DNA of 64,000 nucleotides, taken from positions 1 to 64,000 of the forward strand of contig JAJEIE010000038.1 in NCBI GenBank assembly GCA_022827625.1, given 5' to 3'. This DNA comes from Candidatus Poribacteria bacterium. Its GTDB lineage: Bacteria > Poribacteria > WGA-4E > WGA-3G. Positions 52,929-58,170 of this stretch are shown in pieces. Below the pieces are notes generated by a model that saw only the letters and a program-made list of their open reading frames with translations, made no database searches and was not told the DNA's origin. The translations under genes and the position numbers were made by a program. Position 1 is the first letter of the stretch. Each line of letters begins with the position of its first letter.

Positions 52929-53219
52929 TTGGCAATTAGTGCAGCAGAGAAAAAGGAATTAATGCAACAGCATCAGCTACACCAGCAGGATACTGGCTCT
53001 CCGGAGGCACAAGTGGCAATTTTAACTGCTCGTATTCGGCAGTTGACTGAACATTTTCAGACACACCGGAAGGATTATCATTCCCGTCATGGACTCTTCC
53101 GCCTTGTTGGTAAGCAGCGCCGTTTGTTACGGTATCTATACAAAAAAGATGTTACGCGCTATTACCGTTTAATTAATGAACTTGGAATTCGTGACACTAT
53201 CGGATCGAGGAGAAGTTAG
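52929..53219 (+). CDS. rpsO: 30S ribosomal protein S15
   Basis: A 96-residue four-helix protein that binds the central domain of 16S rRNA. The signature [19 protein letters not shown] and [19 protein letters not shown] are unmistakable. It starts with TTG after AAAGGAGG; no better start exists. Slightly longer than the usual 89 residues at the C-terminus. pnp follows after about 50 bases, as in most bacteria. Confidence 0.98.
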
Positions 53220-53271
53220 GTTTTGCGTTGGTAACACGAGAAAAAATGGAAATACAGGAGTAGTATATAGA

Positions 53272-55590
53272 ATGAAAGTTGAAATGCAACTTGGGAGCGA
53301 GAAGTTATCAATTGAAACTGGGAAAGTTGCGAAACAGGCAGACGGAGCAGTTTGGGTCCAATACGGTGGAACGGTTGTCTTAGTCACAGTAGTAGCCGAT
53401 GACAGTGGACATGACTTGGATTTTTTTCCGTTAACAGTAGATTACCGTGAGAGAGGTTATGCGACAGGGCGCATCCCAACGGTCTACGGTAGGCGCGAGC
53501 CACGTCCTGGAACATCAGAACAACTGATTGCCCGCTTAATTGATCACTGCATTCGCCCTCTCTTTCCAAAAGACTTCAAAGCAGAAGTCCAAGTTTTATG
53601 TAACGTGTTTTCATCGGACGGCATTCATCCTGCGGATGTTCCTGCGCTTATCGGTACATCTGCGGCGCTGTCGATTTCCGATATCCCGTTTAACGGGCCA
53701 GTTGCCGCGGTCACAGTCGGGAAAATTGAAAACGAATTGATAATCAATCCGAGTTATGAAGAATTACACGCCTCCGAGATGGAACTGTTCGTCAGTGGCA
53801 AGGCGGACGCGGTGATGTCTGTCGAAGGTAGTGGCCATGAAATCCCGGACGACGAAGTTATTGATACAATTGTTGCTGCCCACGCGCAGATCAAAGAAGT
53901 TATCAAACTTCAAGAAGGATTGGCAGCGGTATGCAGTAATGCCAAACGGGATTACGCCTCCAAAGACATCGAATCAGACCTTAGCTCTCGTGTCCGAAAT
54001 CTCGCGACATCGCGGATTCGAGAATCTATCGGAATGGCAGACAAAAAACTGCGGGAAGATTACCTCGAACAGGTCCAAGAAGAAGTCCTATCAGAAATCC
54101 TTGAAGATATACCTGAGGAAACGGATCCGAATGCGACAAAGGACACGATTTCTATCTTAAGCGAAATCGAAAAAGAAGAGATGCGCGAAGCCATTCTGAC
54201 AGAAGGCAAACGTGTTGATGGACGCGGTGTAACAGATATTCGTCCGATCTCTGGAGAGGTTGCCCTGCTCCCGCACACGCACGGATCAGCACTCTTTACC
54301 AGGGGCCAGACGCAGGCACTTTGTGTAACGACCCTCGGCACATCAGGCGATGAAGATGTCCAACGCGGACTTGATGGCGAAGCGAGGCGCTCTTTCTTTT
54401 TACACTACAACTTCCCTCCCTTCAGTACCGGTGAAGTCAAAAGGATGATGGGTCCGGGGCGTCGGGAAATCGGTCACGGTGCCTTGGCACAAAAGGCACT
54501 CGAACCTGTTATCCCAGAGAAGGAAGACTTCCACTATACCATCCGAGTGGTATCGGAAATCTTGGAATCTAACGCCTCATCGTCAATGGCAAGCGTCTGT
54601 GGGGCAACCTTAGCACTCTTGGATGCTGGTGTCCCGTTAAAAAGACCTGTCGCTGGAATTGGTGTTGGTCTAATTAAAGAAGCGGACCAGGAAGCAATAC
54701 TTACCGACATGCTCGGCACTGAAGATTTCCTCGGCGATATGGACTTTAAAGTCGCCGGGACCAGCGAAGGTGTTACCGCGATTCAGATGGACATCAAGAT
54801 TGACGGGGTTAGTCCAGAGTTGATGCGCCGCGCCATCCATCAAGCGAAAGAGGCACGCCTCGCAGTCATTGAGCAGATGAACGCTGTCATAGCGGAACCG
54901 CGTGCAGAACTCTCTCCCTACGCACCGCGAATTCACTCGCTCCAAATTGCTCAGCAAAAAATTAAAGACCTCATCGGACCCCGGGGTAAAACTGTGCAAG
55001 GCATCCAAGAAGAGACCAACACAACCATCAATATTGAAGATGATGGTACTGTTGAGATCGCGGCGACAAGTGCTGAAGATGTCAAACGCGCTGAGGAAAA
55101 AGTTCTTGCAATCACGGCGATGCCTGAGATTGGGAAAGAGTATACCGGAAAGGTCGTCCGAACTGCGCCCTTCGGTGCATTTGTGGAGATCTTGCCCGGG
55201 AAGGATGGACTTGTCCATATTTCGCAAATGGGAGATGGCTATGTCCGCCGCGCTGAGGATGTCATGCAGGTCGGTGATGAAGTCACTGTTCGTATTCTCA
55301 CTATCGACGAACAGGATCGTGTAGATCTGACACTCGTCGCAGCGGGTGGAGTCCCGGTTGAAGAACTGAATATCGAATCGAATGATGATCGTGAATTCTC
55401 AAGTGAGCGAGAGGGTCCAAGAGACTATCGTGATACCGGACGTTCTGGCTATCGCGATAACCGCGACTCACGGAATAGGCGTGGTAACGATACTCGCGAC
55501 CGCCGTAATAGTCGTTATGACCAACGTGACAATACACGCGACTTCCGAAATCGTCGCTCGCCACGTATCCCGAAAGGACGACCTCGATAG
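53272..55590 (+). CDS. pnp: Polyribonucleotide nucleotidyltransferase (PNPase)
   Basis: A 772-residue 3'-5' phosphorolytic exonuclease. Two RNase PH-like domains, KH (IKDLIGPRGKTVQGIQEE) and S1 (GKVVRTAPFGAFVEILPGKD) domains are complete. FFLHYNFPPFSTGEVKRMMG marks the catalytic core. After the S1 domain comes a tail of about 60 residues rich in Arg, Asp, Asn and Gly, with many RD and NRR units; it is probably an RNA- or protein-binding disordered tail. Start at 53272 follows AGGAG; the longer frame overlaps rpsO. A strong terminator follows. Confidence 0.97.
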   Translation: MKVEMQLGSEKLSIETGKVAKQADGAVWVQYGGTVVLVTVVADDSGHDLDFFPLTVDYRERGYATGRIPTVYGRREPRPGTSEQLIARLIDHCIRPLFPKDFKAEVQVLCNVFSSDGIHPADVPALIGTSAALSISDIPFNGPVAAVTVGKIENELIINPSYEELHASEMELFVSGKADAVMSVEGSGHEIPDDEVIDTIVAAHAQIKEVIKLQEGLAAVCSNAKRDYASKDIESDLSSRVRNLATSRIRESIGMADKKLREDYLEQVQEEVLSEILEDIPEETDPNATKDTISILSEIEKEEMREAILTEGKRVDGRGVTDIRPISGEVALLPHTHGSALFTRGQTQALCVTTLGTSGDEDVQRGLDGEARRSFFLHYNFPPFSTGEVKRMMGPGRREIGHGALAQKALEPVIPEKEDFHYTIRVVSEILESNASSSMASVCGATLALLDAGVPLKRPVAGIGVGLIKEADQEAILTDMLGTEDFLGDMDFKVAGTSEGVTAIQMDIKIDGVSPELMRRAIHQAKEARLAVIEQMNAVIAEPRAELSPYAPRIHSLQIAQQKIKDLIGPRGKTVQGIQEETNTTINIEDDGTVEIAATSAEDVKRAEEKVLAITAMPEIGKEYTGKVVRTAPFGAFVEILPGKDGLVHISQMGDGYVRRAEDVMQVGDEVTVRILTIDEQDRVDLTLVAAGGVPVEELNIESNDDREFSSEREGPRDYRDTGRSGYRDNRDSRNRRGNDTRDRRNSRYDQRDNTRDFRNRRSPRIPKGRPR

Positions 55591-55633
55591 TAACGGAAAC
55601 CCTCTGAATCAGATCGCAATCCTAATACTGGTA

Positions 55634-55659
55634 GGCGAGGTTTCTAACCTCGCCTTTTT
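55634..55659 (+). terminator. Intrinsic terminator of rpsO-pnp
   Basis: GGCGAGGTT (55634-55642) and AACCTCGCC (55646-55654) form a 9-bp stem with a 3-base loop followed by TTTTT. The hairpin has the same plan as the dispersed palindromes in this window and may be a repeat taken over as a terminator. Confidence 0.85.
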
Positions 55660-55669
55660 CCTTTAAGGT

Positions 55670-55858
55670 AACCCAAGTTGCCACCCATTTATAGACATAG
55701 CACTCCAAATCAACGGTATGAATGCCTTAATGGCATTCCCCGGGAGTGCAAGAGTTCACATACGCCATTTTCTATAGACATATCACCCCACTGGGGTGAA
55801 GAGGGCATCTGGAGACTTCTTTGAAAACGTTCAAAACCTGTTAGTAGCAACTTGGGTT
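55670..55858. mobile_element. 189-bp MITE-like element
   Basis: Perfect 12-bp terminal inverted repeats AACCCAAGTTGC (55670-55681) and GCAACTTGGGTT (55847-55858). TTAAGGTA occurs directly at both ends (55663-55670 and 55857-55864), like a target duplication overlapping the ends by one or two bases. Inside are the direct repeat TATAGACATA, the hairpin TCACCCC-ACT-GGGGTGA (55783-55799) and one AATCAACGGTAT repeat. It has no gene. Confidence 0.6.
55707..55745 (+). repeat. AATCAACGGTAT-hairpin repeat, copy B
   Basis: AATCAACGGTAT followed by GAATGCC-TTAAT-GGCATTC and CCCCGGG. CACTCC (55701-55706) and GGAGTG (55743-55748) add an outer stem. Nested in the MITE-like element. Confidence 0.8.
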
Positions 55859-55870
55859 AAGGTAGGCAGG

Positions 55871-55888
55871 CGAGGTCACCCTACCTCG
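55871..55888. repeat. Small hairpin after the MITE-like element
   Basis: CGAGGT and ACCTCG form a 6-bp stem around CACCCT. Resembles the pnp terminator arm and may be another member of that palindrome group. Confidence 0.4.
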
Positions 55889-55942
55889 ACTATCAGGGAT
55901 GCAGTGAATGTTCGTTTATTTTTCAAGTGTACCATAAATGTT

Positions 55943-55971
55943 TTGCATATCATTTATTTTTTTGCTATAAT
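55943..55971 (+). promoter_or_regulatory. Promoter of the candidate omega-RNA / IsrB transcript
   Basis: TTGCAT (55943-55948), a 17-base spacer and perfect TATAAT (55966-55971). The expected start is near 55978, about 50 bases before the structured RNA region and about 250 before the IsrB ATG. Confidence 0.7.
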
Positions 55972-55977
55972 TTGAAG

Positions 55978-56231
55978 AAGTGATTTATACAAAAATAACA
56001 CAGATCAATGCAACAAGAGGTAGCAGAAGTCAACTACCCAAGTCTAAAGACTTGGGCTTGTGCGAAGCGTAGCCAGCGTCCACTCCATAAGTTAAACGGT
56101 TGACTACAGTAAAATATCGTAATATCTGTGGTGGTTCGCAAAAGTATTTAGGATACTCCCCTCGTCCTATATCAATGCCGATATTACGATCTGGAAGGGG
56201 CAATATAAACTCCATTGGAGCATTACAAACG
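55978..56231 (+). ncRNA. Candidate omega-RNA (HEARO-type guide RNA) of IsrB
   Basis: About 250 bases with no protein-coding signal directly upstream of IsrB, the place where IscB and IsrB guide RNAs are encoded. AGTCAAC (56028-56034) pairs with GTTGACT (56099-56105). Inside is the perfect hairpin CCCAAGTC-TAAA-GACTTGGG (56037-56056) followed by CTTGTGCGAAGCG. In known systems the guide is the 5' segment copied from the DNA flanking the element, which here would be near 55978-56020. Boundaries are inferred; the 3' end may reach into the gene. Confidence 0.65.
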
Positions 56232-57272
56232 ATGTTTGTTCCTGTTGTAGACGAAAACCAAAATCCACTTATGCCCACTAAGCCTTCACGGGCACGGAAG
56301 TGGATTAGAGACAAGAAGGCGACACCCTTTTGGAAAAATGGCGTGTTTTGTCTGCGTCTGAATGTGGATCCTTCTGATAGGTATTTCCAAGAGATATGCG
56401 TCGGTGTTGACCCCGGCAGTAAGAAGGAAGGCTTTACCATCAAATCAGAGGCACACACTTATTTGAATATCCAAGCCGATGCCCACAGCAAAGTTGGCAA
56501 GAAAGTTGAAAAGCGTCGTGAGTTGCGGAGGGGGCGTCGTTCTCGCAAATGTCCGAATCGCAAACAGAAAAAACACAATCTATCTAACAGAGATCGTATC
56601 CCCGCCGGCACACGTGCGAGATGGAACTGGAAACTGCGTATTCTTGACTGGTTATCGAAAATCTATCCCATCACACATGTCTGTGTTGAAGATATTAAGG
56701 CACGAACGATAGAACGTGCGAAGAAGTGGAACACCTCTTTCAGTCCACTTGAAGTCGGTAAGCAGTGGTTCTATACCGAAATCCGAAAACGGTGGGAGTT
56801 GCTGACGTTACCCGGATGGGAAACCCAAGAGATACGGGAGAGTCTCGGTCTGAAGAAATCCTCAAAGAAACTATCAGAGACGTTTGATGCCCATTGTGTC
56901 GATTCTTGGTGTCTCGCTTACCATGTCGTTGGCGGTGAGGGTGTCGTAGATAACACAGCTATATTCTGTATATCGCCGATACCGCTCCGGAGACGTGAAC
57001 TCCACAGACAGAACCCACAGAAAGGTGGGGAACGTCCGCGTTACGGTGGCACGACTTGCGATGGATTCGTGAAGAACACTCTCGTGAAACATGTTAAGCA
57101 CGGCTTGACGCGTATTAGTGGATTTGGCAAGACAGGTATTTCTCTGTATGCTTTAGAGGGAAACCAACGTCTCTGTCAAAATGCGAAAACAGAAGATTTT
57201 AAAGTGCTAACACGCCTCAACTTCAACTATAGGAGCGGGCATGCCTCCCCCGGTTCATGCCACACGGCATGA
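56232..57272 (+). CDS. isrB: IsrB-type RNA-guided nickase (IscB relative without HNH)
   Basis: A 346-residue protein. The N-terminal PLMP domain reads VVDENQNPLMPTKPSRARKW (residues 6-24). RuvC-I is GVDPGSKKEGFTI with Asp60; an Arg-rich bridge helix (KRRELRRGRRSRK, 94-106) follows; RuvC-II has Glu153 (CVEDIKA); RuvC-III has His221 and Asp224 (DAHCVDSWCLA). Only about 66 residues separate RuvC-II and III, leaving no room for the HNH domain of IscB. The C-terminal part (RRRELHRQNPQKGG onward) matches the target-adjacent-motif domain of the family. ATG at 56232 fits the family start; the longer TTG frame runs through the RNA. No TnpA transposase is nearby. Confidence 0.87.
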   Translation: MFVPVVDENQNPLMPTKPSRARKWIRDKKATPFWKNGVFCLRLNVDPSDRYFQEICVGVDPGSKKEGFTIKSEAHTYLNIQADAHSKVGKKVEKRRELRRGRRSRKCPNRKQKKHNLSNRDRIPAGTRARWNWKLRILDWLSKIYPITHVCVEDIKARTIERAKKWNTSFSPLEVGKQWFYTEIRKRWELLTLPGWETQEIRESLGLKKSSKKLSETFDAHCVDSWCLAYHVVGGEGVVDNTAIFCISPIPLRRRELHRQNPQKGGERPRYGGTTCDGFVKNTLVKHVKHGLTRISGFGKTGISLYALEGNQRLCQNAKTEDFKVLTRLNFNYRSGHASPGSCHTA

Positions 57273-57285
57273 ATACCGTTGATTC
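57245..57285 (-). repeat. AATCAACGGTAT-hairpin repeat, copy C, at the IsrB gene end
   Basis: Read on the minus strand: GAATCAACGGTAT, then stem TTCATGCC-GTGT-GGCATGAA and CCGGGGGAG. It contains the IsrB stop codon and the last nine or so codons. It may be the right end of the IsrB element, or an independent repeat inserted there. Confidence 0.75.
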
Positions 57286-57315
57286 TAAAGGATGGGGTCC
57301 CCTGCCCGAAGATTG

Positions 57316-57576
57316 ATGAAAATAAGACGAAACACCAGCAAACACACTCTCGACAAAGCAGATCTGCTCGACCAGAAATGGGTAACCTACTTTTTAGCGA
57401 TTGTTCTCATTCTGCTTGTCCTCATCTTTGTTGTTTTACTATCGCCTACCTATAAACGATACATTGTTGATACCGCCAAATCCGTGTTTTACGGCGGAAA
57501 ACAGAAAGTACCGCGTCCAAAGGCTTCACCAGCGAACTTCCAAAGCCCTGCGGTGCTAAATGGTTTAATATTCTGA
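57316..57576 (+). CDS. Small single-pass membrane protein
   Basis: An 86-residue protein: a basic N-terminus (MKIRRNTSKHTL), one TM helix at about residues 25-45 (YFLAIVLILLVLIFVVLL), then a basic segment with YKRYIVDTAK and a Pro-rich end. I recognise no family. It lies 76 bases before the LptE-like gene on the same strand, so an envelope role is possible. No strong ribosome site precedes the ATG. Confidence 0.55.
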   Translation: MKIRRNTSKHTLDKADLLDQKWVTYFLAIVLILLVLIFVVLLSPTYKRYIVDTAKSVFYGGKQKVPRPKASPANFQSPAVLNGLIF

Positions 57577-57651
57577 ACCTAACAGACGAACACAGAACGA
57601 CGATACAACACGAGTCGGATTACACTTTTCGGCAAAATTCGGGAGAGAAAG

Positions 57652-58170
57652 ATGTACAGGACCTTGTTCACGTTAGCGATACTGATAACACTATCCCTAT
57701 TGGTTTCTGGGTGCGGTTACTACTCTAAATCAGAATATCTTGAGCATATCTCAACCATCCGTATTTCGCCAATTGAAATTTTGGATGCCGATTTCGCTTA
57801 TGACACGACCTCTCAACGACCATACGACGAAGTGATTCATGAAAAATTAACACAACGCTTCAATCGAAAATGGCGAGACGGGAACGACTCCGAATTTACG
57901 ATGCGGATACAGGATTACACTTTAGTAGAGTACGGCTTCGGTCCGCAAGGCGAGGTTGAAATGCTACGGATGACGCTACAAATTGAATACGAATTTCTGG
58001 ATCGGGTTCGCAATACGATGATCGCTGAAAGAGACAACTACATCCAAGTTCACGATTTCTATGTCGTCCCGAATCGAGCTGAGCCGATGGAAACCCCGGC
58101 ACAAGCCAGAAACCTTATTGTCGAAGAGTTGATAGAAGACCTTTATAACAATCTTGCTGAACAGTGGTAA
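57652..58170 (+). CDS. LptE-like outer membrane lipoprotein
   Basis: A 172-residue lipoprotein. The signal peptide ends in the lipobox LVSGC (Cys near residue 21), followed by GYYS, close to the C-GYxx start of LptE proteins. The rest (HEKLTQRFNRKWRDGND, then a beta strand-rich part) fits the LptE fold, which plugs the LptD pore for lipopolysaccharide insertion in the outer membrane. No lptD is in the window, so the name is withheld. Ribosome site GGGAGAG. Confidence 0.75.
   Translation: MYRTLFTLAILITLSLLVSGCGYYSKSEYLEHISTIRISPIEILDADFAYDTTSQRPYDEVIHEKLTQRFNRKWRDGNDSEFTMRIQDYTLVEYGFGPQGEVEMLRMTLQIEYEFLDRVRNTMIAERDNYIQVHDFYVVPNRAEPMETPAQARNLIVEELIEDLYNNLAEQW

Follow-up and report, generated by a model that had tools for sequence, protein, structure and literature searches.

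A mobile element of 1287 bp, encoding a putative IsrB nickase and its omega RNA, occupies positions 56029-57315 (+) of the 64,000-nucleotide stretch of Candidatus Poribacteria DNA analysed here (the window; positions 1 to 64,000 of contig JAJEIE010000038.1), where it is inserted exactly between two signals of the gene that follows pnp, the Shine-Dalgarno (SD) sequence (56015-56021) and the start codon ATG (57316). The best explanation of the data as a whole, to which a probability of about 0.72 is assigned, is that this is an IsrB/omega-RNA element of the IS200/IS605 type that inserts at start codons and ends in a hairpin carrying an SD of its own. A wider proposal stands at even odds, namely that there is a transposon family that uses start codons as the target-adjacent motif (TAM), in which an end-borne, hairpin-spaced SD would make insertion translationally silent, the end would be common to isrB and tnpB elements, and ATGG, ATAA and ATAG TAMs would have evolved through changes at two residues.

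The isrB gene (56232-57272, +) is a real gene, with an ATG start and a GGAG about 11 bases 5' of it, and its 346-amino-acid product is, on the evidence of sequence and predicted fold, an IsrB, by type an RNA-guided DNA nickase. The Pfam family RRXRR covered residues 3-156 in a profile search (E=5e-31), and profile, sequence and structure comparison delimited a PLMP motif (residues 12-15), RuvC I (D60), an Arg-rich bridge helix (about 88-106; a helix at 88-103 in the AlphaFold model, at low local confidence), RuvC II (E153), RuvC III (H221 and D224) and a C-terminal TAM-interacting domain that contains R313/Q316 and is beta-rich at 284-325 in the AlphaFold model. The four RuvC catalytic residues are invariant in an alignment of 46 copies, the others being 63-86% identical to the window IsrB. 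E153 and H221 are separated by 67 residues, and no HNH family was matched in the window protein by Pfam and NCBIfam profile searches; the HNH between RuvC II and III that membership of IscB demands is lacking, and the NCBIfam IscB match, as expected of a protein with HNH missing, is restricted to residues 5-156 and falls under the family cut-off. Among solved structures the closest relative is DtIsrB, from Desulfovirgula thermocuniculi (PDB 8dmb), which is colinear over residues 3-281 in single-sequence comparison and 3-333 by profile. A structure search with the AlphaFold model (mean predicted local distance difference test score 71.8) placed 8dmb at the top (E=2.5e-23), followed by IscBs and then RuvC resolvases, with TnpB and Cas12 structures scoring far below. 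DtIsrB (PMC9581776) has the same domain order and catalytic motifs, likewise lacks an HNH, has an upstream omega RNA and reads its TAM with an Arg and a Gln; the window protein is about 30% identical to it in structural alignment. The median ratio of nonsynonymous to synonymous substitution for isrB is about 0.13 (55 usable pairs; 28 for the window copy), a value that points to purifying selection, which supports activity. An earlier note, made from the letters of this DNA and a list of its reading frames, had proposed an IsrB that looks active, with a PLMP domain, an Arg-rich bridge helix, intact Asp60, Glu153 and His221/Asp224 and about 66 residues without an HNH between RuvC II and III; its identification as IsrB, the intact catalytic residues and the lack of an HNH were borne out.

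The boundaries of the element were established by comparison with other copies and with empty sites. The left edge, GTCAAC at 56029, is conserved in 125 copies and is position 1 of the match to the HEARO RNA, whilst the right edge was placed by conservation, where the agreement between copies from different sites breaks off, and by empty sites that are contiguous. An empty pnp-adjacent site occurs in about 18 related poribacteria, in which pnp and the leader are followed directly by the ATGA of the next gene; in L252 the empty site reads CAATAAGAGGTGGCACAC joined to ATGAAAACG, and the window has CAACAAGAGGTAGCAGAA, the 1287 bp and then ATGAAAATA. A copy preceding dnaN has a contiguous empty counterpart in L301 (AACAAGGAGAATTATAC joined to ATGGAATTAAC), as has a copy at ATAA in L282-L284, and a target duplication is absent at all three of these comparisons. 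The element has the subterminal hairpins, the fixed target motif and the lack of target duplication that characterise IS200/IS605 elements; a tnpA of its own, which is required of autonomous elements alone, is not found inside it. The invaded gene (57316-57576, +) encodes an 86-amino-acid membrane protein with orthologues in 31 of 36 genomes, and its first bases, ATGA (57316-57319), constitute the predicted TAM. An automatically called start at 57292 was rejected because the aligned orthologues begin at the ATG equivalent to 57316, directly after the SD. Two other placements of the right end, at 57249 and at a palindrome (CCGGTTCATGCC..CGTTGATT), were also rejected, the palindrome being a separate dispersed repeat, and the empty sites dispose of a TAM TTGA within it.

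The motif flanking the right end follows two residues of the protein. R313/Q316 of the window IsrB, matched by their Arg-x-x-Gln spacing in the profile alignment, align with R323/Q326 of DtIsrB, two residues that mutation has shown to read positions 3 and 4 of the TAM (PMC9581776). The TAM of DtIsrB is TTGA/ATGA, and the window copy is flanked by ATGA. Among 124 proteins, RTGA (ATGA or GTGA) flanked 50 of 52 with Arg-Thr at these positions and 42 of 45 with Arg-Gln, ATGG flanked 11 of 12 with Arg-Arg, ATAA all eight with Gln-Leu or Gln-Phe and ATAG both with Gln-Arg; the three with Lys-Pro read ATAA, for which NTGA is a possible alternative. A clade with Gln at the position of the TAM-reading Arg (L232, L230, L235, L238, L240, L243 and L244) is inserted before ATAA and not before ATGA. 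For the Arg-Arg and Gln-Leu clades the frame of the motif was set from empty sites and from what is conserved between insertion sites, and some Gln-Leu assignments were read by eye, short right ends having been missed by the script filter. Two exceptions were found, L188 (Arg-Arg with ATGA) and L190 (Arg-Gln with ATGG). The association gives a Fisher p of about 1e-15 per position, a figure that overstates independence because the copies are related, and Arg occupies residue 316 in several lineages that have diverged from one another, which speaks for more than one ancient event. Arg at the position of residue 326 goes with ATGG here, and Q326R DtIsrB has an NTGG TAM, as has BbIsrB (PMC9581776); in the present family the covariation of residue and insertion site is natural. 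ATAA with Gln-Leu and ATAG with Gln-Arg had no earlier report in the literature accessible to the search.

A preference for RTGA has been noted for HEARO elements. Of 131 readable right ends, 117 had ATGA or GTGA next to them in a first scoring, about ten of which were later reassigned to ATGG or ATAA. At 59% of the sites tested, compared with 19% of controls, the flanking RTGA began an open reading frame (ORF) 80 or more codons long, and an SD in the left flank together with such an ORF was found at 36 of 102 insertions against 30 of 1621 control RTGA sites (p=1e-29), a contrast that in part reflects the purging of harmful insertions, since the control includes positions inside genes. Relative to the left end, host SD-like words are overrepresented at -7 to -10 (124 copies), and the frequency of AGGAG or GGAGG is 17.7% within the last 20 bases 5' of the left end and 0.8% further upstream. 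NCBIfam models for purD, dnaN, pcrA and moaD match the invaded genes from residue 1-4, so that their starts are probably true N-termini; other invaded genes are glnS, thiI and dprA, and one IsrB copy (L210, genome G017) has an IS200/IS605 tnpA gene as its target, again at the start codon. No report of start-codon insertion or of an end-borne SD was found in the literature searched, which did not extend to the original HEARO/IscB descriptions, and for DtIsrB there is no mention of either in the available part of PMC9581776.

The right end (57231-57315, +; match to right-end model R1 at 57228-57319, E=9.5e-9) consists in the window of AGGAG (57231-57235), a stem CGGGCA (57236-57241) pairing with TGCCCG (57303-57308) and a tail AAGATTG (57309-57315). 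Its order in the family is AGGAG, a 6-bp outer stem, an internal loop, an inner stem with the loop CTAAAG, usually 7-9 bases, and the start codon. Thirteen of the 14 pairs in the family alignment show two-sided change, and 90.4% of cells are paired as against 62% after shuffling. AGGAG or GGAGG adjoins the stem in 75 of 116 copies, and in the folded hairpin AGGAG comes to lie about 8 bases from the ATG, which is a normal SD spacing. Where AGGAG is coding, the Arg codon is AGG in 78 of 82 copies, compared with 12% overall (p=7e-64), and copies in which isrB stops earlier still keep a purine-rich AGGAG, AGGAT or GAGGG. Elements of tnpB type, which run the opposite way, carry AAAAAGGAG or CGAGGG at this position, where it is noncoding. 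About 30 distant IsrBs were seen on viral (IMG/VR) contigs, and in many of them the layout is GGAGG-hairpin-ATGA with a long ORF after it. Where ATAA or ATAG flanks the IsrB copy, there is no AGGAG/GGAGG directly at the stem, which is consistent with their having no need for an SD; this control is imperfect, since an IS605 element at ATAA (L126) has AGGAG/GGAGG. On these grounds the right end is probably a ribosome-binding site that the transposon brings with it and that is presented when the hairpin folds.

The omega RNA scaffold (56029-56231, +) directly precedes isrB and resembles the HEARO RNA of IscB elements (Rfam RF02033), which likewise lies 5' of an RRXRR protein. HEARO matched at full length at 56029-56206 (E=2.7e-4), beginning at the element edge, although with 31.6 bits it did not reach the gathering score of 83, nor did the omega RNA of any relative, and the window protein differs from IscB in having no HNH. 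An omega RNA alignment of 28 copies folds with 36 pairs, 22 with compensatory changes. The predicted guide is the host leader at 56009-56028 (+), including the host SD AAGAGGT (56015-56021); its position at the 5' end of the omega RNA follows from empty sites, which keep the leader directly before the ATG, and its length of 20 nt was taken from DtIsrB (PMC9581776). Since the guide is outside the element, transcription must start in the flank, and insertion just 3' of promoters would supply the omega RNA with promoter and guide together. A sigma-70-like promoter of the invaded gene, TTTGCA-N18-TATAAT (55942-55971, +; 10/12 match, TG before the -10), would also start the omega RNA; a scan found two matches where 3.5 were expected, so that this one is weak alone. 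TATAAT occurs in 13 of 125 left flanks and in 26 of 1561 controls.

A scan with the right-end model located this end also 5' of IS605 tnpA genes, in opposite orientation (L129, L130, L131, L137 and others), mostly with the target TTAT, the complement of the ATAA clade motif. In their right-end hairpin, tail and target motif these Poribacteria IS200/IS605 elements agree with the IsrB ATAA clade (GTAA in L131), but they carry tnpA and a tnpB-like ORF oriented opposite to isrB. In the window genome the end is shared by tnpB-type elements, also in opposite orientation (L323, L324, L328-L331). As the end is common to IS605 tnpA elements, the IsrB elements probably ride on these transposases, being mobilised by TnpA in trans. 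The location by pnp without a TnpA, remarked on in the earlier note, is thereby accounted for: isrB adjoins pnp because the element went in at the start of the next gene, at its initiation codon, and the element lacks TnpA because its end is one common to tnpA/tnpB elements that could mobilise it.

From what can be read in the sequence, namely identity, boundaries, insertion site, covariation of TAM and residues, covariation in the hairpin, shared ends and purifying selection, we infer nicking, retention, trans-mobilisation, co-transcription and translation by way of the SD-hairpin. TnpA in trans would insert the element without target duplication directly 5' of RTGA, or of ATGG, ATAA or ATAG in the sister clades, and because the motif is often a sense-strand start codon the element would sit between host SD and ATG. 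Guide, omega RNA, isrB and host gene would form one transcript from a host promoter. With the SD region as guide and the start codon as TAM, IsrB and its omega RNA would recognise an empty site and nick it, which would favour copying of the element back from a sister chromosome. The AGGAG at the right end would provide a new SD, the hairpin collapsing its distance from the host start codon, and the invaded gene would stay translated from it. The window copy keeps all catalytic and TAM residues, AGGAG, outer stem and ATGA; it can probably still form an active complex that targets the empty version of its own site.

An important consideration is whether the right end needs to act as an SD at all. 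Ribosomes ending isrB near the right end might reinitiate at the host ATG, with AGGAG aiding reinitiation or serving the IsrB C-terminus and the hairpin being only a TnpA binding site. In most poribacterial copies isrB ends within the hairpin, in several viral-contig copies its stop is apparently no more than about 10 bases from the ATG, and inner hairpins resembling those bound by TnpA are present at both element ends; however, antisense tnpB-type elements carry the same AGGAG-hairpin-ATGA end and AGGAG is retained where isrB stops earlier, which makes such coupling rather unlikely. It is doubtful that there is no special design, TnpA targeting any RTGA, only noncoding insertions surviving, start codons being the commonest tolerated RTGA and the host gene perhaps silenced. 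Survival between genes is by itself enough to enrich start codons, these genomes may have a duplicate dnaN and 40% of sites are not obvious start codons, but this sits poorly with the joint SD and ORF excess (even if partly due to purifying selection and genic control sites), with insertions before glnS and purD, and with the conservation of AGGAG at the element end.

Two further alternatives concern the protein. An exapted regulator, with IsrB as a guide-directed repressor of the downstream gene like the TnpB-derived TldR factors, would suit a predicted guide that covers the promoter-proximal ribosome-binding site, yet it is highly improbable given invariant catalytic residues and copies at many different sites. 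An IscB with a cryptic HNH, or another RuvC family (TnpB/Cas12), is scarcely tenable: IscB entries of NCBIfam and PDB are the second-best matches, but DtIsrB is clearly best by sequence and fold, there is no room for an HNH and TnpB lies far lower, so that this reading is refuted at the sequence level. A number of observations weigh against the preferred explanation of start-codon insertion with an SD-hairpin end. About 40% of copies open no long ORF at the flanking RTGA, some carry AGAAG or AAGGA in place of AGGAG, right-end RNA folding clearly beat shuffles in two of the four intact ends tried, and the count of tnpB-type ends is biased because the search model contains AGGAG. In the window genome no tnpA of the end-sharing group was found next to an element end, and the window copy itself may no longer move, its mobility being doubtful because of a palindrome in the right-end loop.

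If correct, the start-codon explanation would show how IscB/IsrB-type elements with an externally transcribed guide gain a promoter and do little harm. It would also provide a natural two-residue TAM specificity code, including NTAA and NTAG, of use in engineering compact nickases, and one shared end would link isrB and tnpB elements, the same motif being a 3' TAM for a Cas9-like protein and, on the other strand, a 5' TAM for a Cas12-like one.

The palindrome is a 35-bp dispersed repeat (57250-57284, no strand assigned) nested in the right-end hairpin loop, where it encodes the final 8 or so residues of the window IsrB and so alters its C-terminus. It is absent there in the other IsrB homologues listed and found at more than 25 places in the genome, often in tandem modules ending TTGATT; L333 has it at the same hairpin position. 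The palindrome of about 35 bp (CCGGTTCATGCC..GGCATGAATACCGTTGATT) also occurs near 55709-55754. The window genome, which groups in one genus with Candidatus Poribacteria carriers of homologues, has five isrB copies, three of them truncated, and many further element ends, several at or near contig ends. In all, 145 distinct IsrB copies were collected; isrB was matched in 37 of 60 searched genomes, with a maximum of 23 in one genome, and a GTDB genome scan gave 59 isrB loci, all named Poribacteria. IMG/VR contigs (L342-L378) encode IsrBs 41-56% identical, many with the same SD-hairpin-ATGA right end. At dnaN loci (L301 and others) several Poribacteria genomes match the 5' region of dnaN twice, in tandem and close together, which suggests a duplicated dnaN. 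The gene order at 52929-58170 is an rpsO-like ORF, pnp, the 86-amino-acid membrane protein and an LptE-like lipoprotein, and the adjacency of pnp and the membrane protein gene is conserved in relatives.
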